In this document: piece by piece, positions 2,144 through 61,200 of the stretch
Layout of the letters: each line of letters starts with the position of its first letter
How positions within the stretch are numbered: position 1 is the stretch's first letter
From: Clytia hemisphaerica
Lineage: Eukaryota > Cnidaria > Hydrozoa > Leptothecata > Clytiidae
DNA length: 64,000 nucleotides
Reading direction: 5' to 3'
Assembly (NCBI GenBank): GCA_902728285.1
Contig: CACVBU010000791.1
Span: forward strand, 186,001-250,000
Translations under genes and position numbers: made by a program
The notes under the pieces: model-generated
Database searches by the model: none
Seen by the model: the letters and a program-made list of their open reading frames with translations, nothing else
Told to the model about the DNA's origin: nothing

Positions 2144-2428
2144 TACACGTTTTTTTTTTTAAGAAACACACTTTTAAGAAACATGAGGCTCAGAATGCCT
2201 AAAAACTAAGAAACATCTAAGAAACATGCTGAGGCTGAGAATGAGAAAATAACATTTTTAAAACGGTTTTACATTTTTAGAACCTTCCAATCTTTGCGTG
2301 AAAAATAGGCTGATTATGTCAAAAAGTTTAGAAACATGTAAGAAACATTTAAGGCTCAAAAGGCCGATTTCTTAAGAAACATTGAGGCTGCTTGGTAGAA
2401 CTAGTTTCTCAAAAAAAAAAAACGTGTA
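2144..2428. mobile_element. TACACG-type MITE, AAGAAACAT word
   Basis: Inverted termini TACACG-T(n)-AAGAAAC and GTTTCTC-A(n)-CGTGTA bound about 285 bases. The inside holds six to eight copies of AAGAAACAT, interleaved with GAGGCTCA/GAGGCTGA. The same termini occur at 33276, 34979, 41378 and 59285, each with a different word. TA at both ends fits a TA target duplication. No coding capacity. Confidence 0.75.
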
Positions 2429-3119
2429 CATTGTAAGGGTCAGTAAAATGCACTGCCAGGGTGCCTTTTCACTGCTCAAGAGCTGCACTGCAAAGGTCCG
2501 ATTTTGAAAGCCAATTTTTCGGCGGCACATGCCGTCGTTTAGAAATCGAGCGCCCCTCGGGAAATTTCGGCATCATTGATGACGTCGCGCCCACCTGATG
2601 ACGTCATCATTCTTTCAGAATACCGAAAATAGGACCTCCTTAACTTTTTTTCACTTTAATTTTCTTTGCTCAAATTTCTTTTCTGAGGTAACTCATTGTA
2701 TCTTTGGGGCTGAGGGTAAATTTTTTGCCACCTGTTGGTATCGTGTATTTTACAGAGCAGCCAAAAAAGGCCTTTTTTGCCTAAATAGCCCTGGGATACT
2801 GCATCTATTGATTGGAAACGCTATTACCTTAATTCTGACAAGTGTTAGATATTGATGATACAAAGCTTAACAGCAAAGGTTTTAGCAAAAACTGAGGAGT
2901 GGTTATGCTGAAAGTGAGCATTTTAGGTAAAAAACGGACCTGTCTGTAAATTACCAAAAGCTCCAGTAGTTCCGGCAGGTGGTCAACATGTATTTTACAG
3001 ACTGGTCTGCAAAGTATGAAATACTCATGAGAATGAATTTTTCTGTATTAGTCTTTTATTTGATAAATCAGCCTTCAGGAACAAATCCCAACCAAATCGA
3101 ATGAGTCAATCAGTCAATG

Positions 3120-3199
3120 GGCTCTTCCAGAAAAAATTCGTACATGGGCGGACAATATATCCTCCACCCCCCATGTACGATTTTTTTCTGGAAGAGCTC
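3120..3199. repeat. Short perfect hairpin element
   Basis: The left arm (GGCTCTTCCAGAAAAAATTC, then GTACATGGG) is repeated in inverse at 3171-3199 after a GC-poor loop. It looks like the smallest kind of foldback element. The half-copy at 523-552 shows that it is dispersed. Confidence 0.7.
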
Positions 3200-4167: not shown

Positions 4168-4398
4168 CTATAAGATTTGTATGAGTTTCTCTGTTCTTAT
4201 TTTTGCACCTTTAGCCTTTACAGTCCAAGAGCTGGGGGTCAAAATAGGCTCAATGAGGTTACCAGACATATTATATAGTCTGGTAGAATACGATTCCTCC
4301 CTGAAATTTGGCACATAATCTTTCTGATCCTGACTATCGTAAAGAATCATCATAAAAAGTGTTAGCAAGGCAAGACCCCAAGGACACATTATTACCAT
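4168..4398 (-). CDS. Doubtful 76-aa open frame with hydrophobic N-terminus
   Basis: The frame starts MVIMCPWGLALLTLFMMILY, which resembles a signal peptide, followed by a polar tail with no recognised motif. Just upstream of the ATG lies a TATATAAA. However, the surrounding string (AGTCTTCTATATA..AGAGCTTT) matches the arm of the repeat family at 7296-8965 and 39887-40340, so the apparent promoter is repeat sequence. I do not recognise a family. It is more likely a chance frame than a gene. Confidence 0.15.
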   Translation of the reverse strand: MVIMCPWGLALLTLFMMILYDSQDQKDYVPNFREESYSTRLYNMSGNLIEPILTPSSWTVKAKGAKIRTEKLIQIL

Positions 4399-12500: not shown

Positions 12501-15500
12501 TTACTTAACTATTAGCTTTTCTCAAGATTCGCTCATTCAATTTTCAACACTTTATTGATTCAATCGATACACCTATCGATACATAACATAGACTTTTAAT
12601 CAATAAGAATTTAGCAATCCAAAATTAGCGATAGAAAATTAGCAATATGAGATTTATCGATAAAAAATGAACGTTAATAAATTTGTTATAGAAGCCACTG
12701 CAGTGCAATTTAGCGATAACGATAAAAGATTAGCACTATAAAATTAGCGATGCAACTTATCGATGCAACTTAGAAGTCATTGTAGCGTTCAAAGTCTCCG
12801 AATTTTTACAAACAAAAATATCTAAAGACAGCAGTTGCGTTTAAGAAACAGAACACCCCTATCTGTCCCTCAGCCGCAAGTTTTGTTAAGCCGATCATAG
12901 ATTTTTCTAAAGCTCTGTTGTTTTATTATTCTTCATGAATTTCACTTGCAAGCGTCTCTTATGCTTAGTTTTATCGTAAATCCCCAAGTGTTTCTATCTA
13001 ATGCTTAATTTTATCAACTTGTTTTTACCTGAAGTGTTCCTAAGGCTAGTTTTGGAAAGAGTTCATAATTCTTTGCTAACGAATAAAAAAAAAGGCATTG
13101 TGACCAATTTCATCGACAAAGCAATTTATTTATAGAATTCAATAACTTTATTGATAAAGACTTTTGAACGTTTAAAGCTTATCGATGACGAATCTACAGT
13201 TATCGATGAAACCGATCAAGCTATCGATAATTTTACTATTGATAATACACTTTTCAGTAGATAATTTTACTATTGATAATACACTTTTCAGTAGAAAGCG
13301 AAAGTGATCCTTTTCCCATGGAAGGTCACTTCACAGTTGATACTTTTCTAAGCAATTCTGCTTTATGAATCCAGCACACATTAAAGATATTTGACTGAAT
13401 GAAAAAATAAATGAACTCAAGAAATTTTCTTAAAATAAAAAGATTTCAATTTTTTTGAAAATTATGTGTGATTACAAAATTCTGAAAAAGATTCAAAAAT
13501 ATGATGAAAATCACTAATTTTAGTACCAAAGTAATGAATTCAGTTGATATGAGTGGTGCATAATGTCTTGAAAGAGGGGAAAAAATCCTGATGACACCCC
13601 AATTTCGAGGGGGTTCCATCAAATTTTGAAAGCAGGTGGATCCTAGAGTAGGGGAGGTTGCTCTAGACGGGTGGGGGGGGGTGTAGTGACACCCTTCCAA
13701 ACTATAGCTCAGAAAAGTCACTTACCATGGCAAAATATTAGCTGTGGTACCAAAAACTTTAGCTGATCAGCCTCTTTTTCTCCTAATGTCACTAATTTTC
13801 CTATATGGGTTAACTAGATCATTTCATGAGCAAAAACTCTTTCATTTCTTTTTCATCACAGTTGGGAACATCCCTTACGAAGCAACAGATGAACAACTCA
13901 AAGATATCTTCAATCAAGCTGGACCTGTTCTGAGCTTTCGGTAGGAGTAATAACTTGATTTAAAGCGACTTTCCTAGTACTCATTGCATTTTTTTATTAG
14001 TCGGCATTTTTAAAGGGCGGAAAATAGTGTTTAGCATTTCTTATTTATGACTCAAAACGCTTTAAGTTATGTGGACACCTTTTCCTGATTATTTGTCAAA
14101 AAAGAAAATTCTTCAGCCAAAGTGGGGGAAAAGTTACTGGATCTCATTTTCGTAAAATCGCAATCTTAAATCTTTCTTGGACCTAGAGTTATAACCATTC
14201 AAATTTTATACTCAATAATTGTCTCTTTCGGAAAGAACAAAGAAAAAAGAGAACGTCCAGCGGACGTTTGACACAAAAATCTCGAAATATTTTATAAAAA
14301 TCATAATTTTTACGTCCATCGGGTCGTAAATTTAATGGAAAACACAAATATGTTCATAGTCCCCCCCCCCCATATTACCACTGGGCTTAATAATTTGATT
14401 TTAACCACACCTACGTTTTGGGCGCCCCCAAACCTGCGTTTTGACAACCAAAATTTTTTGATATACTTTAAAAATTTTATCAAAAAAATTTATGCTCAAA
14501 ATCCTCTAAATCACATTTCCAAACTATGGTCAAACTTCTGTATTCATATCTTAAAGATATCTCGAGAAATCGCTAAAGTTGCAAACCCCCGTTTTGGGGG
14601 CCATTAGAAAAAAGCTACCTATCTTTAAGCGACTGAAATATGTTGTTGAAATTGAAAATTTTGAAAAAGCACTTCTGGGAAATAAAGTAGAGATGTTAAA
14701 GATTTTCATGCAGCAAAAATTTTTGTAAAACCTCTTTTCCTCTAGATTTGAGAGACATTTTAAATTTGATCAACGTTTTGGGGGCTACATACTGTAACGA
14801 GTTGAAGTCAATCCAAAGAAAAATCCCAAGATGCTTTTTTAGTTCAATCTATTGGGAACAAAATCATTTTTCCAAAATTCAACTTCTTTGAAGTAGGTAA
14901 TGTTAAAATTCTTAAGATTTTAATTGTATCCTGTTCAGTTTTTTGAATTTAACCAAAATTTTAACCATTAGATAGAAAATATTACTTGCTTTCTGTAAAT
15001 ACATACTTTTGACGTATAAAAATTTGTTGTTCTAAAGATATGACCAATACAAGAGAAGGTGTCATAAAGGGTGTCCACATACTTTAAGCTGATTCAATGT
15101 CAATTAAATTTGTAATTTTGCTTTTTTAGAGCCGTGTTTTCAATTATGTTTATTCTGGTTTATTTATGTTTTTTTGTTTATTTATAATTATTTTTTTCAT
15201 AGACTTGTATATGATCGAGAAACAGGGAAGCCGAAAGGTTTTGGATTTTGCGAATACAAGGATCAAGATACAGCACAAAGTGCCATCAGAAATCTTAATG
15301 GCACAGAAATTCATGGAAGAACACTGCGTGTTGACAGTGCTTCAAGTCAAAAAGCAGCTGCTGATGAAACCAAAAGTAAGTAAACACAGTCCAATAATAA
15401 ATCGATGATTTGCAGTAGGAACAGGATATTTTAGATATCAGAAATTTTCTGATGCTGAAAATAAATGTAGAATATACAGTAACTATTTTCTCAAAATTAC

Positions 15501-33275: not shown

Positions 33276-33620
33276 TACACGCTTTTTTTTTATAAGAATG
33301 GTGTAAATCCATTTCATCATGGATTTTCTAAACTTTTTTGGGAAAATCATCCTGAAATATTCTTACAGCATTCTTAGGTTAGGATCCTATTCACTGGATT
33401 TAATATTTAGTACATACGTCTCAAACATAAATTTTTGTGAAAGGAGTGAGCCTTATTTGGGGGTAATTGACAATTCAATTGAAAATGCTCTAAAAATGAC
33501 ATTCTTAGCTTGAGTAGCAAAATTCCATGATGGTGATATTCTTAGCATATTCTTAATTTTTTGGCCATTTTTATCATGGACATTCTTATAAAGTGTATTC
33601 TTATTTTAAAAAAGCGTGTA
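33276..33620. mobile_element. TACACG-type MITE, ATTCTTA word, copy 1
   Basis: Inverted termini TACACGC-T(n)-ATAAGAAT and ATTCTTA...A(n)-GCGTGTA. About eight ATTCTTA/TAAGAAT words lie inside. The element at 59285-59646 is an inverted copy of the same family (shared TGGTGTAAATCCATTTCATC near one end). Confidence 0.8.
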
Positions 33621-34978: not shown

Positions 34979-35349
34979 TACACGTTTTTTTTTTTATTAG
35001 AACACCTAAAATTTGGCTGAGCCTGGATGTGCTTATTTTTTTTAGCAATTTTCAGCCTAAAATGTTCTTAAATGCGTTCTTAATTTTTCAGACTACTCTA
35101 AATCGACAATATGATACAAAATAAAGAGCACTTAAATTTGGCAAAATTTGGACAATATTTGACTCTTGACTTTTGAAGATCCACCCCTAAATTCGGTTAA
35201 AACTGCTTAAAAAGAGGAAAAAATTGTAGTTTCTTGTCATTTTTTCCCAAACTGAGGCTGGGCATGTTCTTAAGATGTTCTTAATTTTTCGACGAATTTC
35301 AGCCTATATGTTCTTATAAACTAGGTTCTAATAAAAAAAAAAACGTGTA
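34979..35349. mobile_element. TACACG-type MITE, GTTCTTA word
   Basis: Termini TACACG-T(n)-ATTAGAAC and GTTCTAAT-A(n)-CGTGTA. Seven GTTCTTA-like words alternate with GAGCCTGG, TTTCAGCCT and GAGGCTGG phrases. It has the same design as 2144-2428 and 41378-41668, but the word differs. Confidence 0.8.
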
Positions 35350-35983: not shown

Positions 35984-38900
35984 TTAGGCTTTATCACCGC
36001 CATAAACCGTTATTTTCCAATCTAAGACGACACCCGAGCAATCTTCACCTCTCTGACATTCAATTTTAGGATCTTCATAACCAGCGTTAATTTGAACACG
36101 TGGTTCACCCGTTTCTTCTTCTTGAACTTGCACCTTCTTGAAAAGATGTGAAGTCTTTTTATTATGACGGTGTGGAATTCGAGCTCTTGAATCCTTCTCT
36201 ATAGAAACCTCTTGTACTCTGTTTTGTTCATTTACTTCTAATAAGCGACCGACTGTTTCGCCGCGCGGCCGTGGTATAGTGCTTTTACGTGATATCAAAT
36301 CATCTAATTCTTCTAAGAGTTCATTTCTATAGTCTTTGTTATTCTCTACCGTATTGCCATCTTTAGATCTTTCGATATTTGGGATATCGCTTCGTTTCAC
36401 TCCTTTAGGGTATGGTAAGGTGAAGAATGGATCCTAAAATAAAACGAATTTCAGCTGTCAGTTTAGTGTTATTAGAAAATACCTTATCAACCAATCTTCA
36501 TAATAGCGCTTTCAACGCCAGCTCTTAATCCGCCACAGGTCCAAAATATCGCCAATTATTGTCGGCGTCAAAAGGACCGAAATGTTGGTTAAAAGTAAAG
36601 CTTTTCTCTATTACTCGATAGGAGTGCTCACTGGGATCGCAGCTTGGTTTAACTTCAGATGGTATTTGAGATTCAAGCTAAAGATAAGAGCGCCTGACAA
36701 CAAATTACAAAAAATCAAGATTTTGCCCCCTATGTTGATGAGAAGATTTTTGGGAATTCAAATTCCCTGGACTTATGGTAATTTTTAATGAATCCATTTG
36801 AAGGAAGTTCATTATTTATGTACCTTTTCTCTTCGTTGGTCCCATTCTTTATGTTTGCTTTTCATTTGAGCATCAATCACATCTTCTTCAAGAGATTCAA
36901 CGTCGTTGTTGGAATCAGAACCGAAGGAGGCCGCCTCTACATCATCTTCCGGATTATTGGCTACTACCACGTGCCATGATCCTTTTTTGTGGTCCGTCTC
37001 ACCTGAAACAAAATGGAACTACAACTTATTAAAGATTTGAATTGAGACGATTTGGGGGCTTGAAGACTCGCTGTTATACGGTTTAAGGACTCAATAACAA
37101 AAAAACATCTTAACTTTTTGACACTATATAACCAGGCCCTTTCAGATTGCCAGGGTTTTTTTACACCACCCATAATCACTTTTGATCTAGACTAGAAGTT
37201 GTTTTTTGTAACAGATTTGGAACACACATTCCCTACCATGAAATAAACTAAATAGAATGATGAAGGGTAGATAAGGAAATTTAACAATGTACGAGTCTGT
37301 TTTCCCATCTCTCTACCAATTCAATGATATATATAAAAAAAACACTTACCCCAATAAAAGACGCTCATGAAATTCCATTTATCCAAACCTTCAGTCGAAT
37401 CGTCATATTTTCGAGTACTCAACATTTCACTTTCTGTCCCTGCAGGTGAGAAAAGCTTTACAGAGACGTCGCCACGTCGTTTATGGACAAAGCTGACGGT
37501 CAAAACGACGTGTTCTAATCTTTCGGGCATTCCTCGTTTAACATCAGCGTCATCCTCATCTTCCAAGCATTCTGTGGCTCGTGCTGAGAAACGGATGGCG
37601 CCTGCTTTGGATGGAATATTTCTATAAAAAAGGATTTATTGGAGCATTCAAAGTAAGTTGATTGATTATGACTTAGGTTTATTGATTTATGTTGGATTAA
37701 ATTTGGCTGATTTTACCAGTTTTAAGGTAAATCCTCTAAGATTCTCAAAAAGGACCAGTACGCCTCACATTTTAAATACCCGTTAAAATTTACGTTATTA
37801 TTTCAGCTCAAAAATTTACTTAAGACAGTCTTTTTAGATCAATTTTGCATACGCCAAATTAAATGATCAACCGCAAAAATAAGTTGACGTAATGTATTTA
37901 AGGTAAAATGAGATGGTCGGAGACTTTTTGGAACAAATACTTCACAGAAAAACCGTTTTAGTTTTTATGGTGATATACATACGATGTAACGACCTATCTA
38001 AGAAATCTCGAGAAAAAGTTATGGTATCCCAAATCAAAATCGTAAATATCTTCTACGCAGAAAAACTTACGCTTTTTCATTATTTTTTGCGATAACACAT
38101 TTGACATGGTTTCCTAACGGCTTCATATTTTTAGCAGCTTTGACCAGTTCTTCTGCGTCCAAACGACCGAAACCAAATTTTAGATTATAATGAAAATCAG
38201 CTCCATTTCTTTTCCATCCATCATCTACGGGTGAAGTGATTTGAGCTGAACGCACTATTGCATCTTGTACTTGGCGCCAATTCAAGTCTGGACTAAAATT
38301 TGGAAACAATTTGTTTAGAGATTTGAATTCGTAGCATAGTGAAGCCATGGCCGTAGTGTAAAGTTAAAACATTCGGCTATGGTGTGCAAGGTCATAGGTT
38401 CAAACCCCTTGCACTTAAAACCTCGCTGCTAAATGCTTAGCAATTAAAGCAAATGATCAAGGGAAAGCTGGGAAATCCAGGGAGAAAGAGTGGCTTCCTA
38501 CGTACGAGAAGACAGTTATCGAAAGAAAAGCCTTCAAGTCGCCTCTGACTACAATCTCATTACTTAATCAATCAAAAGCTTGTGTTATTTCGAATGAATA
38601 AATTGCACCAGATAACAGATTAGGCAGCTTCAATATCAATCCAAGAACTATGAATTTTCTAAGGAAGACATACTTGGATTCAAGAAGGAGAGCAATAACA
38701 CCAGCAGCAAGAGGGGCCGATGCAGAAGTCCCTTTGAACTCTTCTGTACAACCATGATATAAATCCGTTGTCACCTAAAATTATAAAAGTAGAGATGTTT
38801 AAGGAATTTACCAGCTGTAATGTTAACAAGTTCAACTTAGTCAACTTGTACAGCGTATGCGTTTGGCTTCTTGACATCACCAACACATGTTAAGCTAATA

Positions 38901-41900
38901 AAGGATAAAAGCAAGTCCGAGAAAATTCATCAGGCCAAGATATTCAAAGCAAAAGATGAAAATTTTGATTAAAAAACAGCTATATTTCGTATATTATCAT
39001 ATACATCATTCAGCCAAATGATTTCTGTAAAACAAAGTTGAGCTTAAAAACGCTATTACAACAGGTTGTTTCTGCTTTTTAACCAAATTTTCATTCATTC
39101 ATTTATTCATTCATTCATTCATTCATTCATTCAGAAGGACAGACTTACCATGGGGTTTTCTCTACCCTCTCTATGAGAAGCTCCATTGAATGTCACAGCA
39201 AGAGTGGACGAACATTTTTCTGTGTAGTAGGCTGATGTACCGTGATCACCAATGCAACCAATAGAAATAGTGTATATTGACGTCGTATATCCGTCACAAT
39301 TACAATCGTCGTCCGTCAGCCCTCCATTGCCCGTCGCCCAAACGAATATGTTGCCTTTTTTGTCTCGACCCTATGAGCAAGAAAACATTAAATTCATTCG
39401 AGTGTTACAGCTAACTATTTTGCAGTGACTTTGTCTCAAGGTTTTTTAAGGCCCCGTTTTACTGTGGACTATATACTTCATCTTCTAAAGGCTAATCTAT
39501 CGGTCCTAGCTTTACCTTATTACCAAAAATTATGAAAACAAAACCATAGAAAATACATACATACCTCGATAGCTGCTTTTTTGAGAGCATTCGTAGCAAT
39601 AGGACCCGGCTTTCCAAACGTTTTCCCATCATCTTTGGGTCCCCAACAATTGATATAAATATCGACATGATCATTTTTAAATCCCAAGGCAGCAGCTTCT
39701 AGCGCATCCGTAGCTTGACCATCAAGCATTCGGACACCTCCAACTTTAGCGTTATAAGCGACGCCCACACCGCAGATTGAATTGTTTGCGGCCGCAACTG
39801 CTTCACCGGCGCATCGTGTACCGTGGCTAAAAGAAAAGATTTGTGTGGTAATTTTTTGAAAGATTGGTTTAAATTTCCTTTCGTTCATTCGAAAGCTCTC
39901 AAAAAACTATATAGAAAACTTTTAAACGGGTATAGCCGATTTCATTACCTAACTCGAGATATTTCATGCGCAAGTTCCACTTTTCGCCACATTTTGGTCT
40001 AAAATTGACCATAAATTGCATCTTCTGCGTGAATTATCTCGAGCTAGGTAATGAAATCGGCTATACCCGTTTAAAAGTTTTCTATATAGTTTTTTGAGAG
40101 CTTTCGAATGATTTTGATGATATTGTCTGAAAATGAGTTTGAAATTTTCAAAAATTTTCGACCTTAGGGTTTTGCCTGGGGAAAAAAGAAATTGCCCAAA
40201 AAAGGGATGTTCCACCTGTGGGATTTTAGGGGAATTTTTCCTGAGGCATAAGCATCCTATAGAGAAGGTTCTGGAGAAAGTTTCAGCTAGATATTATTTT
40301 TTTCCTACAAATAGCCTATACTTTTGTAACACGACCACACTATAAGTAATTGTATAAATCAATAACTAACTATAATTATCCAAATTCCCTTAAATCGAAC
40401 AAATTTGAGTTATTCGTTCGTATTCGAGTTTTGTAGATTTTACTGTATCCACCTGTCAATAGAATAATGGTCACATCCTGTCTAATTATTTCCCCAAGTT
40501 TGATTCACTTTGATCGCTCAGTGCAAATATTTGTATGAATATCTTACCAATTATCGGGATCGGTGTCCCTGGGCATCGGATCTTCGTCATTGTCATTCAA
40601 ATCACAACTGGCTTTCTCATCCTGAAATTATTGAAAATGAAATATGAGTACGATTATTTAAGAAAATGATTACGTTAGTAGTCTGTGTTTTACTGAGTGA
40701 AAGTTTTGAAGTTTTGAAATTTTGAAATCTTGTACTGTAATTTCACGGACGAAAATAAGAATTCGACGGTATTCGGTATTTTATTCATTAAAAATGACTT
40801 ACGCATATTACGAATACACGATTCTTTTATAGAAATAACTTCTATAAGGATATCAGGGTGAGATTTCGGAGTTAGAACAATAGGCCTTAACAATCTATTG
40901 TTTAGAACAATTGAAAAATTAAAATAATGCTCACCCTCAGCCAAAGCACATTATCTTATAAAAAAGCGTGTAGTTACAGCTCTCATATCAATCGTTTTTT
41001 GTCTCGATTAGAGGTTAATTTTCTTAAGATTTTTATGAAAACTAATTAAAACTTACATAGTTTGGTTGTAGATCTGGATGTGTGTGATCAAGTCCTATGA
41101 ATGAGAAAAATTGATTTAGTGAAAACCGAAAGTTTTCACCCTTTGTTGGTTCGAAAGCAGAAAGTTTGTGCTCTTAAAAAAAATTGAAAAATTCCAAACT
41201 TTTGAAAGCTAGGTTTTAGATTTAATAAAAATACCTTACTCCTAGTATGCTATCAAAAGGTTCTCTATTTTCATTGAAATACTTCCCCAACGAAGCTCAA
41301 AGTTTTATAGATATTGATAGGGACTAACATTTCCTCTAAGCATAACAAGTTTCTGAAGAAATTTCAATGTTTTTAGATACACGTTTTTTTTTTATAAGGA
41401 ACCTTAACTTTGCTCTGAGCCTGGAGTTCCTTATTTTTACAGAGAATTTCAGTCTCAAAGTTCCTTATCGAGTTCCTTACGACATAGGAAATTTTGAACT
41501 TTTTGCCCCTTGAAAGATCAAAATTTGGTCAAATAAGTCCCAATAAGGTACATTATTTTCAAATCCACTTATTCTCAGCCTGAGCAGTTCCTTAACAATT
41601 CCTTATTTTTTGAACCATTTTCAGCCTCGAGTTCCTTATAAACGTGTTCCTTATTAAAAAAAAACGTATTTCCTTCCATTTTCCATTTTCAAATATAAAG
41701 ATAGCCACACCGTGACCACCAATAATGAGAAATTATATCGTTTATTTTGCTTTGTCAGCATAGAGGCGCGCATCCTTTCAATGTCATAAAAAAGAATATC
41801 TTTATTTTCACTTGGCTTACCTTTCCTCTAAGCATGAAGACAACTTTCTGAAAACAATTAAATGGTTAAAACTTAGTTCCCCATAAAGAACTTGGCTTAC

Positions 41901-44373: not shown

Positions 44374-44994
44374 TTTTCCGAGCCAGGTAATTCTAAGGAT
44401 TTTTCAATACCGGCTTTTTCGCTTTATTTTTCCATGGCCATTTCAATCAACATTAAATATTTAAAACCGTAAAAAAAGCCATTTATATATTTAGGTTTAT
44501 AATTAATTCATTTTGATGTTTTTTCTTCTCTTTAATTGTTATATCTTTGCTTTAAAATAAAAAGTGTTGTAGTTATACTGAAAGTGAGCTTATGAATGTT
44601 CGAATTATATTTTATTCGATTTTTATCCCAAAAATATATTCTTTTGATGGAATACATAGAAAAATTCGAATCTTTTTTTCCTAGCACTCATATTGAGCAT
44701 ATCAAAACAAAAAACAATACTGTTTCACGCCTAAATGATTTCATTCCATAAAACAAGCGGCTAAAATTGCAAAAGCCTCGACAGCTCCTCTTCTGCATCA
44801 AAATTTCATTATCGGCAGCTCTGATATTGATTTTTGATTTTTTTTTATTAAAATATTGAAATTTTGTTTATGTAAGAATTTTGGGAATTTTTTGGGTAAA
44901 AAGTGTGAAAGATGTGACAAAATGGATTTTGTTTGATTTTATCGGTTTCGAGCTTTTTGTTTTGGCACTATCCTAAGTGCTTGAAGCAAAGGGT
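44374..44994. promoter_or_regulatory. Shared upstream region of the two convertases
   Basis: 621 bases between divergent start codons. AT-rich with no repeat element I can recognise. It must hold both promoters, but I see no decisive TATA or factor site. Confidence 0.4.
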
Positions 44995-47900
44995 ATGGAA
45001 AGTAATCTATTAACGTTCGTTTTGCTTATTACAAGTACTATTGTATACCAAAGCGACGCATTCCGAGTCATCAAGAACAGTCAATACGGCAAGAAGCAGC
45101 GATTTCATTCGCAAGCTCAGTTCGATAAAATACATAAATTTTTACAACGTAGATACTCGATAGCACATCAGAATGGAACTAGTGATGATAAACATTCATA
45201 TTACACAAACTCATGGGCTGTTCATGTTTTCCCACCGGAGAAAATAATCGCAGATCGTATTGCTGAAAAGCATGGTTTCGTCAATATAGGTCCGGTAAGG
45301 GAATTCGAATCATATAGCCTAAAGTTATGTTGTTTTCGGTGTCAATGGTTTTTGAAATGTGTATTTACCTGCTTATGAGTGCGTTACAGTAGCAAGAAGG
45401 AGGGGTGTAGGGTGCAGAGAGGGCAGTAAATCAAAAATTGCTTCGGCCGCTTAATTTTTAACAAACATGTTCCGAATTAGGGGTGCCAAAATTCTATTTC
45501 CTTCAATTTATCCTCTCAATCTTGGCCAAGCCACCAATAAAGTTCTCCTATTAAATCATACCTATCGTGTCTTTTTATAGATTGGTAATCTACCGGGCCA
45601 TTTTCACTTCAAACATGATAAAATAAGCAGTAAACGTAAAAAACGAGAAATCAAGAAAACTGATCTTTTGGAGCTCGAAAATGAGGTAAAGTTTACTCAT
45701 CAAAAATTTGCCAGTTGTAAAACATTTCAGTTCTTTTTCAAATTACTGTATGTATCTTTAGAACAGTTAGGATTATGAGTTCTTGTAAAATTCTAAATGT
45801 TCTTGTAGATCAGACCACTATTTTGGGTTTCTATAACATCGGTTGCGGATTTTTGGTCCATTGTAGCCATTTTTCTCCTGACCTGAATTTTTTTTCACAT
45901 TTCTGAAGGGTTTTGACACTTTTGCTAAATAGTCCTGAAAGAGTACTACAAGGAAATTATGGTATTATTTGTTACGTTTCGACTGTTGGGAACTAGTTTT
46001 TGGCTTTTCGTCTTGCTATTTGGCTACCCAAGTTGAAATGTTCTTTTTTGCAAAGTTTTTTTCTCTTTCTCAGTTCATGATTTTGACACAAAAGTTTCAA
46101 TTAATATTCATAAAATCTATTGAATTGTACATTGTTTATTGAAACCAGCACGAATAAGTGACGTCAATATATTTTAACGTCAAAATAATTTTACATTTTT
46201 AACGTCAAAATGATTTTTTTGCATACCATGGCGGCTTAAGAAAGGCATATCTTTTTTTAAATTGATTTTCGTGATTTCCCGTAAGCAAAAAAGTTGTTCA
46301 GAATTAAATATCCTTTCCAACAGTATATAATATGTTAGGGTTTTTCGAAGATGAAATTTTTGCAAAAAAAGTGCTGACGTCAACAGAAACATCATTTTCA
46401 AGAGTGTCTCTCTCATTTTTTATTTTTCTTACTTCATGATGAACCTCTGTACAAAATTTCAGAGCTCTATCACAATTTGAAGTATACATGTGATAATCCG
46501 CCCCACTACCCATGTGATTGCCCTGGAAATTTAAATAGTGAGAATTCTTTTATTTCCAGGTTCAATATGCAATCCAACAGAAGATCTTGAAAAGATTCAA
46601 ACGAGACAATCAACTTGTTTTCAATGATCCTATGTTTCAAGATATGTGGTACTTGGTCAGTTCCCTAGAATTTCGGTTTTATCTCAAAAATCTTTGCGGT
46701 TTGGTAAGCCAGAAATCAAGGCAAATCTTAAAAATCATAAATGTACAAAAAGCCTCGATAGATAACGCTATAGTAGCCGGCAGCCGTATCATTAGCCTTT
46801 TGATTCCAGGCTTAGTTGTCTAGGGATGTCTGTTTACCAACGAAACTGAGAACTATGTACCACCAGTTTCATAATTTGTACCGATAAGGTAATAAAACTT
46901 TTTCAGGTTATAAGTCTTGGGAATTTTAGAACTTTTAATTAAACTTAGCAAATACGCAATTATCTGATAATTTGTTTTTTAATATCTCATTTGTAGGAAA
47001 ACACAGGTCAGACGGACGGTCCGCCGGGTGTTGATTTGAATGTCATGAATGTTTGGAAACAAGGTCTATCCGGACAAGGGATTGTAATTAGTGTTCTTGA
47101 TGATGGTAAGTTAAATTCATGCAATATTTTCATCATGCAAAGAGGATCTGGAGTTCCCGAGTTATTCCTGAACTTGCATATTCGATTCATTTGAAACTTG
47201 TTTTTTTTTATTCTTTGTTCTTTTGAAGTGAAGTCATGATAAAACATATAGTTCATATACTTTAGGTCTCGATCACACTCATCCGGACTTAGAGCCTAAT
47301 TATGTAAGTATCAAGAATTTTCATCTGCTTAACTTGTCTCAGAAAAAGACGAACTTTAACAAGTGACTTCAATCTCGGTATTATCATCTTTTCAATCAAA
47401 TTTTGAGTTTTCAGTTTTTACAAAGTCGCCATTTATTCAATCGCCTCTAGTCCATATTTCTTACCACTTAATGGTCAGTGCAGTCATTAAGATTAAAGTA
47501 AAAGCCGCTTACTTACCACTGGGCGAAATAAGAGATTTCCAATCCTGGAAATATCTTGAAAGTATGATATTTCCATATACTTTTGTAAATATGGAAATAT
47601 GACTTTTCTATATTTCCAAAAATTAGAAATATCTTGAAAATATGATACCTTATCGGGGAAAACTTCGTCGGGGAAAAGTGTGGAAAAGTGACGAAATGTC
47701 GGCCAAGTGACGAAAATTTTCCCCGACCTTAATGCGCTTACCAAAACCAGCAAGTGACGAATATTTTTCCCCGACGAAAATCTTTCCCGACGAAAATTTT
47801 CCCCGACGAAAATTTTCCCCGACGAAGTTTTCCCCGATAAGGTATTTCCACAACTTTGGAAATATAGAAAAGTCAAACTTCCATATTTACAAAAGTATAT

Positions 47901-50900
47901 GGAAATATCATATTTTCATGATATTTCCAGGATTGGAAATCTCTTATTTCGCCCAGTGTACCATTTATTCATTCTTTTCAGGATCGATACGCAAGTTGTG
48001 ATTTGAATGATAACGATGATGATCCAAGACCACGTGATTCAGATCCTGATAATTGGTTGGTTGACATTTTATCCTACAACGCTTTGTTTTTTTCACACCT
48101 ACCGGGTGTGCAACAAATAAGTTACTCTCTTTGATTTGATATTGCAAGCAGTAAAAGAAATATTTTTCAAAGATTGTTTCGGAATCATCCAGAACTTAAA
48201 ATTTGGTGTATTACGATGCCGAATGCTTCAAACCCACAAAATTTTCAACATAAAGAGTTTCCAAAAGTTTTTCTGTGTGCGCATCATTGTTGAAAAAGGT
48301 GGAGAAGGTGAAAGTTTTGAGAAAAATGCTTCGTTTGAACTGTTGCAGCTCATCTCGATTCACAGATGATGGAATGTATTTACAGGGATGCATAATCTTG
48401 TAAATGAATGCTTTTTACATAATGGAAATACATTTCCTGATGCATAAAATCGTTTTGTGCGTCTATTTATTACAATCGATTTAATACTCTCGATTTTCGC
48501 CTTTTTCTGTCATTTTTTAAAATTGATATTTTAGGTTTTTGAACATAACCTCTGAACTAATGAAGTAAAATTAAAAAGTAATACACCAAATTTTAAGTTA
48601 AGCTTTCCTGTGAGTGATTCCGAAAAATTCCTCTTTTCTACTGCCTACAATGTCAAACCAAAGAGGGTAACTTATTTGTGGCACACCCGTTAGATTCATT
48701 TCTATATGGATTTCTCTTCTTTTCTGGGCCTTTTAAGGTTTTTTAAGTTTAACTTAAAAGTTTTTAGCTCTGCATGAATATTCCTGTAGATAATAGCCAC
48801 GTTATTTAGTATCGGCGCTCATTTGACTTCCTTTCCTTTGCCATGCCATTTGCCATGAGTAAGAAAAAAAAGCCTATGCAAAAACAAAAAAACAAGCTTT
48901 GTGTTTCATTAATAAGACAATTAATCATTCGATAAATCTTCTTATCGGCGATCCAAAAAATATCTGCAATCTGATTGGTTAAAAAGAGTACAATATATCT
49001 TGTATTTTACATGTAAAAATATAAATTGACGAAAAGATGTTGTTGCATTGTAGCGGTAGAAGCAATCTAGCGTCACTTTGCTACAAAAGTGTCCTCCAAC
49101 ACAAAAAGTGCATTTTTTGGGTCACCGATAAACCAGTTATCAGACATCTGCTCGTACAATATGGAAATATTTCACTCGTTCCGGATTTTCCGTATATTTT
49201 CCTCGCCTAAAGGCTCGGAAAATATTGTACGGAAAAATCTCGGAACTCGTAAAATATTTCTCATATTGTACTCGGAACTGTCCGATAACTATTACGTATT
49301 ATCTTCTTTTATCTTTATCTTCCAGCCATGGAACACGCTGCGGTGGAGAAGCGGCCGCTGCAGCCAATAATTCGATGTGTGGTGTTGGTGTCGCTTATAA
49401 TGCAAAGATAGGAGGTTGGTAGCTTTATTTTCTCGTAAATCCATTTCCCCCAAACAGGGATACTTCTCAAAATTGCTTGACTGTTTCAAATATATCATAT
49501 GCGATTCCCTTCTTTGGTTCTCAAGGACCAGAGATTTGCTTGTTTGAAAATTTTCCAAGAAATTTTAGTTGCAAGTTGGCATTGATTAATGGCCAATAGA
49601 TTTCCAATGTTTGATTAAGTTTACTTTTTTTGTTAGGAATTCGAATGTTGGATGGTCAAGCCACTGATGCATTAGAAGCCAGTGCCCTTGGTTTTCGTGG
49701 AAACCATATAGATATTTACATCAATTGTTGGGGTCCTAAGGATGATGGTAAGACCTTTGGGAAACCAGGACCAATGGCTGCAAACGCATTGCGTTTAGGT
49801 GCACAGAAAGTAAGTCAAATAAAACTATGTCATCTAAAATTAACATTAAAAAAAGGAATATGGCCAGCAAGATGACTGATTTTTATGGTTTATATTACAG
49901 TAGAGTCTCTATAACTGAAACATCTATAACTCGAATGAGTCTTAACTATCGTTGGCACTGAACTATCTTTATTAAATAGAGCGACTCCTTGATTCACCTC
50001 GGTGTTTAAAACTTGAAATTTCAGACTTTGACTGACAAAAATACCCCCAAGAAACAAGACTGTTCATTGATGTACCATTGATGTAACACAAATTGGTGTT
50101 CTTAGTTTTTTGTTGGTTTTCTCTCAAATGCAGGGTCGTTATGGTTTTGGTTCAATATACGTTTGGGCGACGGGCAACGGTGGGTTGACGGACGATGATT
50201 GTAATTGTGACGGATATACGACGTCTATTTTTACGATTTCTATTGGTTGTATCGGAAACCGTGGGTTGTCAGCCTACTACACAGAAAAATGTTCATCCAC
50301 ACTGGCCGTCACTTTCAATGGAGCTTCTCATAAAGAAGGAACTGAGAATAAAGTGGTATGTCTAGTAGTGTTCGTTGTGTGTGACCGAACTTTTAAAATG
50401 GAACCTGGAATGGGTATCGCTCTAGTAATTTCTGATTGTCCGTAATCAAAATGGTAGCTTGAGTTGCTCAAATGACTAGTTCCGAAAAGCAATGTATCAT
50501 CCGCTCCGTTCTTGTTTTAAAGTTTGATGATTTAAACTCTTTGCATATTCGCTCACATTGAAGGGTCTGCTTATTGCCTGTATAACCGCATTCCTTTTAC
50601 CGATTATTTTTATATCAGTTTTGTTATTATCCCTTATACATTGTTTTATGAGCCAGAGGCTGTTCACCCTGGAGACCTACTGCGGTTATGAGCACGAACG
50701 TACGCAAAAATCGATCTGTATCTTTACTAAGAATCGAAAAAATAAACTTTTTTACAACACGTTTAATGCCCAGGTTAAGTGAGCATTCTTATGTCCATTC
50801 ATGGCCTGCTTGGCTTTGTTTTGTATAAATCTGTGTGGTTGTTTGTTGTTTTTTTGCACAAGACTTACTGCATCGACAAGACTTGATGTTAGAGTATGTA

Positions 50901-53797
50901 TAACGTATCTACTTTCTTACATCAGGTGACAACAGACCTGTACCATAAATGTACTGAAGAATTCAAAGGGACTTCGGCTTCAGCACCTCTAGCTGCTGGT
51001 GTTATTGCATTGGCACTCGAAAGAAAGTAAGTTTTTTTGATACACCCTCCATGTGACCCGATGTATGATAAAGTGAAGGAACTAAATACCAATAGATGAT
51101 GGGAATGGGTGGGAATTTCAATTTTATCAAATGGTGTTTCGCTTAATTTTCAACGGGTGTATAGAAGTTTTATTTTTCATTACCAGTATAGAGCTAATAC
51201 CTTATTGCATTATTGCTTGTTTTGATTGGTCGCTCTAATACTAAAAAATGGATTCTTATAGATGACTTTTTTTGAAAAGCTTATGGTTGTATGCTGAACG
51301 AAATTTCTTGATTTTGTTTTTAGTCCCAAATTAACTTGGCGTGATGTGCAAGATTTGATCGTTCAGACGGCTCTGAAAACATCACCTCTGGATGACGGAT
51401 GGAAAGTCAACGGGGCGGGATTTCACTTCAATCATAAATTTGGTTTTGGGCGGCTAGACGCCACCGCCATGGTTAATAAAGCAGGTGAATGGGCGGACTT
51501 GAAATATACGTTACCTCAGCACAGGAAATGTACAGCTGCTTCTTCACTTGAACGAGTGTAAGTGTTGACCTTTTTTTAAGGATATTAAATATCAGAAATT
51601 ATACATCTACGAAACCTAAAAGCGTGTAGAAACTGGGTTAGAGTTTATCTATGCATTGACTTCGACGATTGACTTTCTAGTCTATTCATGCTTTAAAGGG
51701 AGATATTTGGCACTGTGATTCCTTCTACTGTCCTGAGCAAAACTTCAAAATATTTTTTCCTAAGTCGAAATATTCAAGTAGAACCGATAAATCCAACCTA
51801 AAAACCGATTTCTTCCATTAAAGCAGTTGTTGCAGGTTAATTTCAGAAAGAAAATTGTTAATTTTCAAAATCGTATTTTATGCTTTCTCTCGTATTCAGA
51901 AACATACCAAACAACGATGCAAAAGAAATTTTGGCTCCAACCGTCGCTTGTGAAAACACAGTCGCCAAAATCGACCGCGTAGAACACGTCGTTCTGACCG
52001 TCAGTTTCGTGCATCGGCGACGTGGTGACGTAAGTATAGATCTCATCTCTCCGTCAAACACACGTAGCGAGATGTTGAGCACTCGGAAATATGACGATTC
52101 GGACGAAGGGTTGGATGAATGGCATTTCATGACTGTTTATTGTTGGGGTAAGAGTTTCTTCATTTTATCTCTCGAATACTTTGAAGGGAAGCTCTTGTTA
52201 GCAATAATGATCTTAGTCTTGAGCCTTATATAAACTGCCAAATTAGGTCCATTTACTTTCTACATCAATGATAACATTTTTCACCAACTGGGTGCTTCTT
52301 TTGAGGATCATTCCTTTAAAAGTCTTAGAAAGACTAGAAAGTCTTTGTCTTTACCAGAGCCAAACAATAGTAAATTAAAAAGCAACAAAAACAACAGGAG
52401 TATTTGACCGAGAATCACTTTCTTGACCATAAAGTCTCCTTCGGGTACAAGCTCTGTTTCAAAATGAAACACTTTCACTTTCACTATTTCAGGCGAAAAT
52501 CCACGTGGTACATGGAAGATCATTATCCGAGATAATTATGAGCAAGGAAATGGAATGTTTTCTGATGGTTCAGAATCTGCTCCTGATTTGGAACAACTAG
52601 AAGATCAAGTCATAGATTCACAAATGAAAATACAAGCGGTAAGTGTAGAGATTGATCATTTTTGAAAATGTCTTTTTATTCCTATCGAGATTCAGCTTGC
52701 ATCCAATTCTTATATTGATGTGATTTTCAAATAAGAACAATAATCTTTTCATGTTTTCTTTTTCGTAAGATTGTCTAACTGACTGCATTTGCCTCTCTCT
52801 CTAATTCGCTTTTCACGGGACTAAAGACTTTTTCCACCGATCAGAGATATATTCAAATTATAGATTGTATTTTGCACTACTTTGCATCTAAGATGGTCAA
52901 TTCTTTAGTTCGAATTACAGAGAGATTCGAATCATAAACTTTTTTCTAATCTAATTCTGCCACAACATTTCAGTTTTCTTAACACTTCTAACTTGACTTT
53001 ACTTCACTTAGCGGCGTTAACCTCTAAGGATCCTTGTGCCATTTGTCAGTCCTCTTTCATGGAAGTCACACTCTTAGTTGTTGTATTGGGAAGATATAAA
53101 GATCAGAAAGCTCTTCTAAAGCACCAACTATTTGTTTTTATTTTCTCAGAACCCATTATATGACGGTACCCTGAACAGTGGTGGCTTACGTAGAGATCAA
53201 ATATCACGGCAACCGAACTATTATGGCTATCCTGCATATAATTATGGACCTATCAACTATCCATACGCGAACTATGATATCATGAATTACGGGCGTTCTT
53301 ATATTCCCGCCACACCTGAGGCGGGCGAAGAGGGTGCTTATTATGAAAACGAAGAAGAGGGTCATGCTTATCTTGAGCCAATGACCAGTGAAGAAGTTGA
53401 AAAAGACGAAGAAAGAAACGCACGTGACTTTGTTGAGCATGCGCACCAGACACTTCATAAAAAATATTCTCACCATGCGGCCGCTGATGACAGCGAGCGC
53501 ACGCGGCGTGATGAAGTTGATGACGCGCGTAAAGCAATTTTAGATTATTACACACGAATGAATAATGTGAAAAAGACTACTGTACACAGTGATAAATACA
53601 AGAAGGTACAAGTGCAAGAGGAAGAGACAGGTGTACCACGTGTTCAAGTCAGTGCTGGATATCAGAACCCTAAGATCCAATGTGTAGGGGACGAACTTTG
53701 TTCTGGAGTACTCTTGAAATGGGTCATCACTTTCTATGGATCTTGTGTATCGCCTGATTGCCCTTGTGTACCGCCTGATTGCCCTGCACAAAATTAG
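44995..53797 (+). CDS. Proprotein convertase B (furin/kexin-type, S8B)
   Basis: Paralogue of convertase A. Exons: 44995-45294, 45581-45685, 46560-46655, 46997-47105, 47266-47303, 47982-48055, 49326-49414, 49637-49809, 50134-50355, 50926-51026, 51324-51557, 51900-52147, 52493-52638, 53150-53797. They sum to 2583 nt (860 aa), all phases closing. Start: [20 protein letters not shown], a signal peptide. The prodomain has an extra basic stretch [11 protein letters not shown] and ends at RFKR (147-150). Catalytic residues: Asp202, His242 (CHGTRC), oxyanion Asn343 (ATGNGG), Ser419 (GTSASAP). The P domain has [18 protein letters not shown] and LSTRKYDD. Its last strand ([13 protein letters not shown]) follows a long acidic, Tyr-rich insertion ([23 protein letters not shown]). 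The tail is Cys/Pro-rich ([14 protein letters not shown]), with no membrane segment. It has two more introns than A. Function as a processing protease is inferred from intact residues. Confidence 0.95.
47517..47958. mobile_element. CACTG-terminal MITE (CACTA-like), CCCCGACGAAAATTTT word
   Basis: The ends CACTGGGCGAAATAAGAGAT and the exact inverse are flanked by TAC on both sides (47514-47516, 47959-47961). A 3-bp duplication with CACTG termini is the CACTA/EnSpm pattern. The inverted arms run about 115-170 bases, so the whole 442 bases is a hairpin. The centre repeats CCCCGACGAAAATTTT. The element ends 23 bases before convertase B exon 6, inside the acceptor/branch region. Confidence 0.85.
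48102..48690. mobile_element. TA-flanked MITE with about 110-bp TIRs
   Basis: The left arm starts TA then CCGGGTGTGCAACAAATAAG. The right arm is its inverse, ending GCACACCCGT then TA. Both arms run to GAACTTAAAATTTGGTGTAT-like sequence, about 110 bases at roughly 85-90 % identity. A second, smaller inverted pair (GATGCATAA) lies inside. It is in convertase B intron 6, with no coding capacity. Confidence 0.8.
49134..49290. mobile_element. Hairpin element, GTACAATAT word
   Basis: Arms of about 70 bases (AGTTATCAGACA... and the inverse ending ...TGTCCGATAACT) pair around a short loop (CCTAAAGG). Within the arms GTACAATAT and GGAAAAT phrases repeat. It lies in convertase B intron 6, about 35 bases before exon 7. 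Confidence 0.7.
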
Positions 53798-56877: not shown

Positions 56878-57168
56878 TGTAAAATAAGATCGGTTAGAGG
56901 CCCACTGTGAGCCTAGCTTGTAAATCTGTATAATAATAAGTTATAATTTTCTCAAGCTCTAGGCTTTCCATATTATGGTGCGGTCATGATGCGGTTGTAT
57001 TAGTATAATCGCTAGGAAATTCTGAGCAAGAAGATATAGGTACCTTTTCGTATAGGAGAGGTGTACCCAAAATATAAACCCTAAAAGTTTGCGCATAATC
57101 AGGCTTGAAACAAAAGAATTTTGTCACAACACGCTAATTATGCAGATTTTTTATAGCGACAAAAAAAG

Positions 57169-58211
57169 TTATTCAGTCACAACTTAACCATCAGATTTAT
57201 CCAAGTGACTGAATCAAACTAGCTTAGATTTCTAGCCTAGTAGGAGCCAAGGGAGAATCTGGTATGATTTGGAGTTACGATAAAGAAAAACTAAAGACAA
57301 AGCAAGATTCTATTCTTTTAAAATTCCATACTTTTGACCTGGGAAAAGTTGAAGATTCGTTTTTAACCCTTCAAGATTTTATTGATTGGTCTAAGCCTTG
57401 CCAAAAAATGTTGAGGTCCCAAATAATTTTTGAAACCACTATCTCGAATCTATAGTATTCTCTGTCAGAATCTTATCAAAGTCATATTTTAGCTGGTGGA
57501 ATTTTGTTAGCGTATTTTAAGCATTATTTGGCAGTTTAGTTACATAAAATGGGTTGATATCCTAAAATTATCAAAAATGCTTAGATTTATGGATGGAAAT
57601 TATGCGGAGTACTTTTTTTAGTACCCTTGTATACTACGTTTAAAACACCATTGGGACGATGAGGAGAACAATCTAAGGATCAAAAATGTTTAAGAAATTG
57701 AAAAAATTATTCTTTGAAATGTAGAAAATGAAATGCCAAGGTGAAAGAACTTTTTAACTGATTTACTTCATTATTATCTGAGAGATGAGGATGGATGGGA
57801 GGATGAAAGTGTGAGGTAAATAGATTCGAAATTATATAGATTTAATTCTTTTCTAAAAAATTTTAGTTTTCAAACTATTTACAAATTCAAAAATTTACAA
57901 AACTTAACTGTAACAAAAACTTAAAGTAAAATTTTAAGAGAAAAAGATGGCGCCGTTTTAAGAGAAAAAGATGGCACCGAAAATTCACTATTCTCAATAT
58001 TTTCCTTTTCGTCAGCCAAAAAACAGGCTCAAAAACTAAATTTCGTCTTGTTTAAGTGTGTCTTGGTCAGCAGTTTCAAATGTGCTTTTAACCTCTTCAC
58101 AATTGACAGGAAAATGTTCACACACTCGAGTTTAGAATTTCTCCTTCAATAGAAACGTTCCTCATTGACGGTAAACCATCCAAAAACTCTTGGAACGTTA
58201 TTCAGATCCCC
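57169..58211. other. Spacer between LINE and trehalose gene
   Basis: No gene seen. A 25-base unit (TTTTAAGAGAAAAAGATGGC and following) is tandemly duplicated at about 57930-57982. The 3' UTR of the trehalose gene should lie at the right edge; I could not assign its poly(A) signal. Confidence 0.5.
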
Positions 58212-61200
58212 TTACGCTGGTAAGGTGACAATAGACGAGGTTTCTTGGTTGAATTTCGATGATTTGGGTGAATATTTTCGTCGTCCAACATTCTCTGGTC
58301 TTGGTTTCCTAAAAAAAACAGGGTTCAAAATACAGTTTAATCTCGCAAATCCAAATTTGAGAGGCAAGTCTGGATTGTTTGAATCGTAGAAAATAATTCA
58401 TGAAAGTTTCTCCTTGATAAGCAAAGGCACAGGGAATTTCTTTAGTTACAAACAGTGGTAAAGAGAGACGAATAACAAAATGTCTGACTGTTGAGAGTCA
58501 ACAGTATCAAATATAAATTTACTACAATTTCAAATGGTAGTTTTTTAAAGTAAGATCATCAGCAAAGAACCATGAAACCCTGCTACCCTAATATGGGTTC
58601 ATTCCAAAACAACGCTGTAATATATGTTCTCTCACTATTTTCAGTGGTCAAACATACCTTGTAGACATGTGTCTTTCAACCCATTTAAGAAGAGTGACCA
58701 CAGAATCGGTGGATGGGAGTCGTTTGTCAGCCATTGTTTTCGTCATCTACAAAGAAAAAATAAAGGTCAATTAATACATAACAATGTATATGTATATTAG
58801 GTTGTAGTTTAGGCCGTTTGTTTTAAATTATAGGCCAAATTCTATCACGCTGCTAATCCAAAACTTTGCGGGACATAAAATCTAAACGCTGCAATAATGA
58901 CGAGTACCTGGCAATTGCAATTTTTTTTTTTGCAATTTCAAAACAATTTGAACAGTGTCAAATTCTTCATAAGAAACCCTGAGACCGCGGAATACAAGCA
59001 ATGTGGTCAATTTATTTTTTACATACATGGTTGTTGACGATTCTGAACGAGATAGCCATCCCCTTCAAAGCTTTCATTGCGTCTTCATCTGTGACGTCAT
59101 CACCAGCAAATAAGATGCGAACTCTATATCAAAAGAATGAGAAATTTTGATTATTTTTAACGCTTGTTTCTAGTCTCGTTATACGAGTAAAACTTGGAAT
59201 CCGGGGACTATTTAGGCATATACAGATAGGCTTAAAAATCCCCATAAATGTTTTGTCTTGTATCGTTTCGACTTTTCTTGTTCCATACACGCTTTTTTTT
59301 CATAAGAATACACTTTATAAGAATGTCCATGATGAAAATGGCCAAAAAACTAAGAATATGATAAGAATATCAATCATCATCATGGAATTTTGCTACTAAA
59401 GCTAAGAATGCCAATTTAAGAGCATTTTCAATTATAAATTATCAATTATCCCCAAGTTAGGCTCACTCCTTTTACAAAAGTGCCATTTTATGCTTGAGAC
59501 GTATGTACTAAATGTTAAATCTAGTATGAATTAGGATCCTAACCTAAGAATATGCTGTAAGAATATTTTAGGATGATTTTCCCAAAGAAGTTAAGAATAT
59601 CCATGATGAAATGGATTTACACCATTCTTATAAACAAAAGCGTGTAAGTGCTTCTACGGAAAACACTTGATCACGTGATCATTTAGCAATCCAGGGATGT
59701 CAATGTTGAAAGTTTTAGCAATTGAATTGACCATTTGCGTCGAGTATATCAATTCAAAATTCATACCTTTCGGACCAATCAACACCAAAAGCAGTTCTTA
59801 AAATATGAATGGATGCTCTTCCTCTATTCCAGTTGACATTTGGGGGTTTGATTTCCAAAGCACAATGAGCTTGACCAGCCTGTACAATAGTAAAATTATT
59901 TCAAGTCGTTCTACATATTTCATAATTCTATGCAACCGATAAGATAAGGATTGGTCCAGTGCCAAAAACACACAGTTCTTAAAATGGTTTTAATGCCAGA
60001 AAGGCGAGCCTGTTTTTCTTTGTCAGCGCCAAGACCATCATTTTCACATGTTATATCATTATTTTGGGATGAATGCATATTCGTGATGTTGTCCTTAAAC
60101 TTGAAAATTTAAGAAAAACCTAAATAAACTGCCATTTTGATGACGACCTAGGTAGATTAAACTTAAAAGAACGATGCGTAAAAGACATTTAAAGCAGTGA
60201 CATGTTTGCGTGAATCATTCTGGGATGGTTAACTAGAATAAGTCGTCCTTTTCTTTCGGCACTCCATGTTAAAAGGGCTCCATCGAGTGGGGAGGTACAC
60301 ATAGATTTATAAAGCCCCAAGGGCTAGATGGAGTGCTTTAAGCTCTTCCAAGCAAAAAAAGTGAATATCGCAAAAAAATATCGCTGCTATTGTTTTCGAA
60401 AACCCGCGAAGCTTCTGAGTGGTCAAGTGCTAAAATTCTATTGCAATGTCACGTGACACACTTTTCAGCAAAAGCACGATATCCAGCCCTTTGGGCGTTA
60501 AAAATCTAGGGAGGTACCAGGCCATAGAAGGATATAAATAATAACTTACAATGAATCCAGAATATGTGATCAATTGTCTGGCTTTTTCGATCAGTTCATT
60601 CCTTTTCTCCAATGGAACTTCACATAATGATACGTCAACAAAACGCCCTTGTTCTCCACCCAAGCACCATGTTGACAGACCTGAGAAGGTATAACGTAAA
60701 AGAATTTGACGATTTTTTTAGACCGCGGAACTACGTATTATACTAGAGCTAGACTAGTAAACTAGTAAAGTTCTTGTTGGAAATATACTGTCTTAAACTT
60801 ATCACAAAACTATATAATGGATACTCTCCATTCCGAAATTTCATTACATAATAAATAGTAAGTTTTCATAAATCGAATCTCTCATCGATTGATCGTTCAA
60901 ATTAAAAGGGTCAGTGAACTGAATTTATTGAAAAGTTCTTCATACCTCTTCATGGAGTTGTTTCAGCATCCTTGCTAATCGTTCTTGATGCTCCGCTGGC
61001 ATAGGATGTACAAACTTCGATCCATCATTATGGATAATATCCAATCCGTGATTGCCTGCATATGTTAGCCCCTCAATACCAACCATAGATTTAACATCAT
61101 CAACACTACGGCCTGATATGACGGCGATAAAAACATCAGGGTGATTTGAAAGACGTTCTAATAAACGTTTTGTTTCTGTCGGGATTTTGGCCATAGCTGG

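Follow-up and report, generated by a model that had tools for sequence, protein, structure and literature searches.

Family-specific words at eight fixed sites in abundant TACACG-ended transposable elements of Clytia hemisphaerica

The window analyzed here is a 64,000 bp stretch of the genome of the hydrozoan Clytia hemisphaerica (assembly GCA_902728285.1, contig CACVBU010000791.1, positions 186,001 to 250,000 of the forward strand). Its frames include polyubiquitin, a proprotein convertase with a P-domain, trehalose-phosphatase and a reverse transcriptase. It also holds five short elements with TACACG-T(n) ends: element 1 (2144..2428, plus strand, family D), element 2 (33276..33620, minus strand, family B), element 3 (34979..35349, minus strand, family E), element 4 (41378..41669, minus strand, family C) and element 5 (59286..59646, plus strand, family B). 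Each carries a short word, here called box 1, at eight sites (s1 to s8), and the word differs between families. None of the five is overlapped by a frame of at least 100 aa. The initial annotation had assigned TACACG-T(n) ends and TA edges to all five; this holds, except that element 5 starts one base later than given, at 59286, and that the left (s1) end of element 4, at 41669, has a terminus reading CGTA, not CGTGTA. A sixth element, decayed, shortened and absent from that annotation, lies at 40815..40972 on the minus strand and is by eye nearest to family B2.

The five elements are members of an abundant class of non-autonomous DNA transposons (miniature inverted-repeat transposable elements, MITEs) of the form TA/CACG-T(n)...A(n)-CGTG/TA, being short, present in many copies and without coding capacity, with inverted ends and a target duplication. 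Across the genome (417 Mb in 951 contigs) the pattern TACACG-T8-N{0,12}-TAAGGAAC gave 1071 matches against 0 for the reversed control, and TACACGY-T5-N{0,20}-TAAGRAH-N{5,35}-TAAGRAH gave 8930 matches against 0 for its control. The latter pattern often counts one end repeatedly (100 of the matches as listed correspond to 80 distinct ends), so the ends are fewer than the matches. For element 3, scoring 40 of 4725 candidates yielded at least 39 additional copies, 97-99% identical to it; the 39 are a lower bound and 4725 is no copy number, because the query also contained element 2 and other sequence.

The target duplication was determined by matching the joined flanks of two elements to uninserted copies of the surrounding repeat. 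The empty site for the L009 element lies in the window itself (14090-14260) and has a single TA at the junction, the alignment gap falling elsewhere in the flank; that for the L028 element, found at L079, has two bases at the junction, CA in place of TA. From these two sites it follows that TA is the duplicated target and that the element starts with CACG and finishes with CGTG. Besides element 4, some older copies have a changed terminus. The base after CACG tracks the word: it is C at 16 of 18 TAAGAAT ends and T at 22 of 25 TAAGAAC ends and 7 of 8 TAAGGAA ends.

In element 1 the word is TAAGAAAC, with s1-s4 at 2160-2167, 2175-2182, 2207-2214 and 2218-2225, and s5-s8 at 2328-2335, 2339-2346, 2373-2380 and 2404-2411 (s8 inverted). 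The two family-B elements carry TAAGAAT in opposite orientations. In element 2 the sites are at 33596-33603, 33581-33588, 33548-33555 and 33537-33544 (s1-s4), and at 33369-33376, 33358-33365, 33324-33331 (s7, decayed) and 33293-33300 (s5-s8); in element 5 they are at 59303-59310, 59318-59325, 59351-59358 and 59362-59369, and at 59545-59552, 59558-59565, 59592-59599 and 59623-59630. Element 3 has TAAGAAC inside, TTAGAAC at both ends and TAAGCAC at s7, its sites being at 35324-35331, 35309-35316, 35276-35283 and 35265-35272 (s1-s4), and at 35075-35082, 35063-35070, 35028-35035 and 34997-35004 (s5-s8). The word of element 4 is TAAGGAAC, at 41646-41653, 41631-41638, 41598-41605 and 41587-41594 (s1-s4), and at 41472-41479, 41460-41467, 41426-41433 and 41395-41402 (s5-s8); its s3, read by eye, is TAAGGAAT, the one site of the eight that lacks the exact word.

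Exact copies of the word number six in element 1, eight in element 2, five in element 3, seven in element 4 and nine in element 5, in agreement with the earlier statement that each element is rich in one word. A 7-mer at least as frequent as in elements 1-5 was present in 120, 29, 281, 29 and 18, respectively, of 4000 random pieces of 330 bp drawn from the window outside the elements. By themselves, the word counts are thus unusual only to a moderate degree, and their genome-wide recurrence is the stronger evidence.

The same eight box-1 sites align, with positions and orientations kept, in 32 copies from seven families (A, 4 copies; B, 6; B2, 3; C, 9; D, 2; E, 5; F, 3), whose lengths range from 241 to 512 bp. 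The words are TAAGAAC in A, E and F, TAAGAAT in B and B2, TAAGGAAC in C and TAAGAAAC in D. The spacing s1-s2 is 15 bp in 29 of the 32 copies and 14 bp in the three F copies, s2-s3 is 31-34 bp throughout, and s3-s4 is 11 bp in 29 copies and 10 or 12 bp in the rest. The 11 bp step of s3-s4 holds for the seven-letter cores (TAAGAAC, TAAGAAT) as well as for the eight-letter ones (TAAGGAAC, TAAGAAAC). On the right, s5-s6 is 11-12 bp in 30 copies (7 and 13 bp in the other two) and s6-s7 is 33-35 bp; s8 is inverted and adjoins the right T-run. Distances of 11 and about 33 bp approximate one and three turns of DNA, a spacing that would fit a row of protein molecules along the same side of the helix.

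The middle between s4 and s5 varies from family to family. One copy per family was compared, two in the case of C, and no convincing similarity between families was found in 28 comparisons (in the best, C-E, 2 of 200 shuffles scored as high); the middles of the two C copies, whose ends are identical, are also unrelated. Unrelated middles with related ends are as expected for separate deletion derivatives.

The 32 copies were taken from 51 candidates, namely 33 elements and 18 fetched loci. From the former, 14 were left out (L004, L005, L008, L010, both L012 elements, L013, L020, L022, L023, L026, L030, L036 and L039) by no fixed rule, either because few copies per family were wanted or because an end was doubtful; from the latter, L074, L075, L079, L080 and L090 were left out with an end missing or truncated. 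The excluded copies include L036 (TAAGAAAC end, TAAGGAAC body), L020 (one internal TAAGAAAC) and L022 (a C end joined to an A end), and element 4 stands outside the set because of its changed end. Sites were shifted by up to 2 bp to the register with the best TAAG fit, a procedure that favors TAAG equally in every family.

Within one element the eight sites are 93% identical when family consensus sequences are used and 90% identical as the mean of the 32 single copies, with values of 78% in F and 86% in E. Homologous sites in different families are 77% identical. The family agreement score was 1461, compared with 1239 in shuffles (sd 13, largest 1313), and none of 20,000 shuffles was as high. 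The word is therefore homogeneous inside an element and divergent between families, as had been claimed. This homogeneity does not extend to the 7-bp flanks of s2-s7, which are 40% (5') and 36% (3') identical within an element and 49% identical at the homologous position in other families.

The word adjoining the T-run also usually predicts the next internal word, as the earlier proposal required. Genome-wide, TAAGGAAC at s1 is followed by TAAGGAAC 5-9 bp on in 511 cases, whereas TAAGGAAC is followed by TAAGAAH in 8 and TAAGAAH by TAAGGAAC in 9; all controls gave 0. Among these 17 mixed pairs, 10 retain the C-family spacer (ACGTTTA or GCGTTTA) with TAAGAAA, one G-to-A change, and 2 more have TAAGAAA likewise plus a further spacer change; from their letters, such pairs resemble C copies that have decayed. 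After TAAGAAT the next word is again TAAGAAT in 1411 cases, versus TAAGAAC in 77 (this order only). The neighboring words agree at 47 of 55 listed ends, compared with 18.9 expected by shuffling (0 of 20,000 as high); the 55 are those of the 80 distinct ends (contigs C1-C12) at which a second site follows the first by 6-9 bp.

A second motif, box 2, is common within an element and occurs about four times per element, in the spacers after s2, s4, s6 and s7. Its clearest forms are those of A (AAGGCTTCGA, in four places) and B (TCCATGATGA, in three, and the box 2 of element 5). Next come the AGGCTGAAA-like boxes of C, D and E; those of F and B2 (AGGGTGAAA in the latter) are weaker. Element 1 is assigned a GAGGCTSA-type box 2 on the basis of the other family-D copy, L078. 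With one copy per family, box 2 is family-specific: the summed best 10-mer agreement was 343, compared with 321 in shuffles (sd 5, largest 341), none of 3000 shuffles being as high. The initial annotation had described the second motif as nearly constant in the three window elements with words other than ATTCTTA (TAAGAAT in the other orientation), and it is so in those three, but it switches across more families.

The two boxes combine separately, and this is the strongest new point of the analysis. Box 1 is common to A, E and F, and box 2 to C, D, E and F; accordingly TAAGAAC is paired with AAGGCTTCGA in A and with AGGCTGAAA in E and F, and AGGCTGAAA-like boxes are paired with TAAGAAC, TAAGGAAC or TAAGAAAC. 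Tentatively, boxes 1 and 2 may be read by separate DNA-binding modules of the transposase, exchanged or retuned independently within one genome. If so, switching either box would free a lineage from the thousands of old MITEs that soak up its transposase.

It is probable that these elements carry fixed arrays of recognition sites that follow family-specific transposase preferences, and that the sites have changed together by selection. The MITE ends would carry a fixed array of putative transposase sites at near-constant spacing, with box 1 present eight times and box 2 about four times. A number of related autonomous lineages that differed in their box-1 and box-2 preferences would each have mobilized their own non-autonomous copies. 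If the DNA-binding domain of a lineage shifted its preference, only elements with enough sites of the new form would keep moving; all sites of a family would thereby change together, and the sequence between the sites would drift. Both boxes would then be transposase-binding sites whose change is selected through binding.

Several observations weigh against this explanation. The between-family nodes of the spacer tree have 34-75% support, too low to fix the number of switches or the ancestral word. Among the 21 family pairs only C and E (spacers 70% identical, sites 61%) have sites less alike than spacers, and the significance given by the shuffles is overstated because the families are related. 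The flanks show a family effect on the 3' side (2 of 5000 shuffles as high; 363 of 5000 on the 5' side), perhaps because the word extends by a base or two and some flanks reach the next site. In family E, TTAGAAC stands at both ends in 8 of 8 aligned copies, with TAAGAAC inside and TAAGCAC at s7, so that the proposed identity of end motif and internal word fails for E. Copies of family F mix TAAGAAC and TAAGAAT, and L074 and L075 both have TAAGAAC at s1 beside TAAGAAT at s2. F is the most diverged family, its copies having spacers 73% identical compared with 98% in E, where copies were collected by best match, and either decay or true mixing may underlie the mixture. A foreign word or end was found in 6 of the 33 elements (L018, L020, L022, L036, L038 and L039), those of L022 and L039 being two elements or extra sequence run together. 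Mixed words inside single elements, named beforehand as contrary evidence, therefore do occur (family F, single-base changes), but in a minority of copies only. Finally, TACACG-T(n) ends with their own word array were found at none of 22 CMC (CACTA-Mirage-Chapaev) loci read, several of them too short to include both ends, from the at least 106 genome matches of the PF02992 profile, many of which have open frames; and by eye none of the C-family left ends inspected (100 of 511) lies within 10 kb of a listed PF02992 match.

The initial annotation had offered two mechanisms, gene conversion within the element and co-evolution of the word with transposase specificity, and it is the second that fits. 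Homogenization of the sites by gene conversion or local duplication would account for eight near-identical sites per element and for the 3'-flank effect, but it fits poorly because the flanks were not homogenized along with the sites. The homogenized stretch is only about 8-10 bp, with flanks less alike within an element than at homologous positions between families, and conversion tracts of that length would be unusual. The spacing, including the 11 bp of s3-s4, is preserved as well; replacement of sites at kept positions is predicted by selection through a binding protein and not by the copying of tracts. This mechanism is accordingly considered quite unlikely.

Somewhat less improbable, although still unlikely, is a pure founder effect, in which unrelated parents each contributed their own array and no site ever switched. 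The unrelated middles and the low spacer likeness of some pairs (A-B 38%, A-B2 34%) agree with it, but the eight positions, their orientations and their spacings recur in all seven families, and the words of C and E differ at all eight sites despite the likeness of their spacers. A reading of the words as host-factor or promoter-like sites, and not as sites for a transposase, seems very improbable: at each T-run the adjoining word belongs to the set of eight and is usually that of the family, and a single host factor would not be expected to make words differ between families of the same genome.

The elements are described here as MITEs operating in the manner of CACTA transposons and as likely members of CMC. 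Once TA is assigned to the target, the termini read CACG...CGTG and conform to the CAC...GTG of that superfamily, and the 2 bp duplication is as short as those of CMC (2 bp in animal CMC-NA elements, 3-4 bp in Chapaev). CAC/GTG ends and a 2-bp duplication have been described as marks of animal CMC MITEs (PMC6004678, PMC4079192). Subterminal arrays are on record for CACTA elements (PMC8978399), and PF02992 transposases are abundant in this genome. The TA duplication equally agrees with Tc1/mariner and pogo. MITEs of those groups duplicate TA and have known ends beginning with CAGT or similar, unlike the TACACG of the Clytia elements.

The search for autonomous relatives with these ends, suggested in the initial annotation, yielded none among the 22 CMC loci, 12 Tc1-like loci read of 115 PF13358 matches, or one 601-bp stretch upstream of a pogo-like frame (one of 77 PF03184 matches, inspected by eye). 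No CAC...GTG inverted ends with a duplication were found around the frames of ten CMC loci. For PF13359 (DDE_Tnp_4; PIF/Harbinger/ISL2EU), 152 genome matches were reported. Several candidates were rejected: two ends 4.95 kb apart on C94 belong to two separate short elements and not to one long one; TACACGTTTT, considered as an end in L045 and L046, lies inside a stretch common to both; L071 holds only a nested decayed copy; and a silkworm MITE whose terminal repeat contains CACGTTTTT is a Tourist-like element that duplicates TWA (PMC2997013). L048-L051 are single-frame CMC transposases of 760-822 aa for which ends were not found; L048 and L049 have PF02992 matches as well as matches to DUF1258 (PF06869) close to the cut-off.

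The closest published likeness is the CACTA element Jozin of Chenopodium, for which four related elements are printed with their end sequences and subterminal array motifs (PMC8978399). Like the Clytia elements, these have CAC ends and arrays of short motifs near both ends, with motifs differing among related elements, and in two of the four the array variant is also present at the end of the terminal repeat; in the remaining two, as we read the published letters, nine compared positions show one and two differences between end and array (PMC8978399). Change of end and array in step is thus already published as data, and the view of the initial annotation that concerted replacement within an element lacks precedent was too strong (PMC8978399). 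Jozin differs in its 3-bp duplications and its 19-23 copies of a 12-bp motif (PMC8978399), compared with a TA duplication, eight fixed box-1 sites and a separately combining box 2 in Clytia. The CMC-NA MITEs of wasps and polydnaviruses are also animal elements with CAC/GTG ends and a 2-bp duplication for which no autonomous partner was found; the main text of that article does not use the word "subterminal", and so describes no arrays under that term (PMC6004678). The hAT transposases of Hermes and Herves bind at or near the transposon ends, that of Hermes via multiple BED domains (PMC10368747, PMC3143072). The Clytia elements resemble these in having sites at or near the ends and differ in the size of the duplication, which is 2 bp. 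Elements of the hAT group make 8-bp duplications.

No layout of eight fixed sites with two boxes that vary independently was found in searches of open-licence papers, and the new part is this two-box layout, the in-step change itself being already known. How a transposase changes its DNA-binding preference when many sites must follow is, to our knowledge, an open question. Here a single genome, and a single scaffold, contains at least four box-1 words, several box-2 words and thousands of copies, in which the route of specificity change may be readable from mixed copies (F), ends unlike the middle (E) and boxes changing separately. It provides a concrete setting in which autonomous transposons could escape titration by their own MITEs through a change of specificity.

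Other transposons of the same genome were recorded in the course of the searches. Tc1-like (PF13358) frames recur about every 4.0-4.4 kb, at least two in succession, on contigs C625, C353, C491, C924, C248, C61, C672, C254 and C907. Positions 1-3309 of L056 hold an intact 384-aa Tc1-like frame and a second frame (3-365) that we take, by eye, to resemble the end of a viral-type SF3 helicase/Rep; the arrangement suggests a replicon repeated in tandem, with a transposase of its own. Ten pogo-like (PF03184) copies have equal scores, nine of them with open frames of 509-511 aa (for example G000:C652:115427-115957 and C34:1660899-1661429), and look like a recent burst.

In the window, the proprotein convertase gene extends over 37321-44403 on the minus strand and comprises frames for the P-domain, the subtilase and the pro-domain. 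Both element 4 and the decayed sixth copy sit between frames of this gene, element 4 between those of the pro-domain and the subtilase. Plus-strand frames at 44977-53797 appear by eye to be a second proprotein convertase copy.

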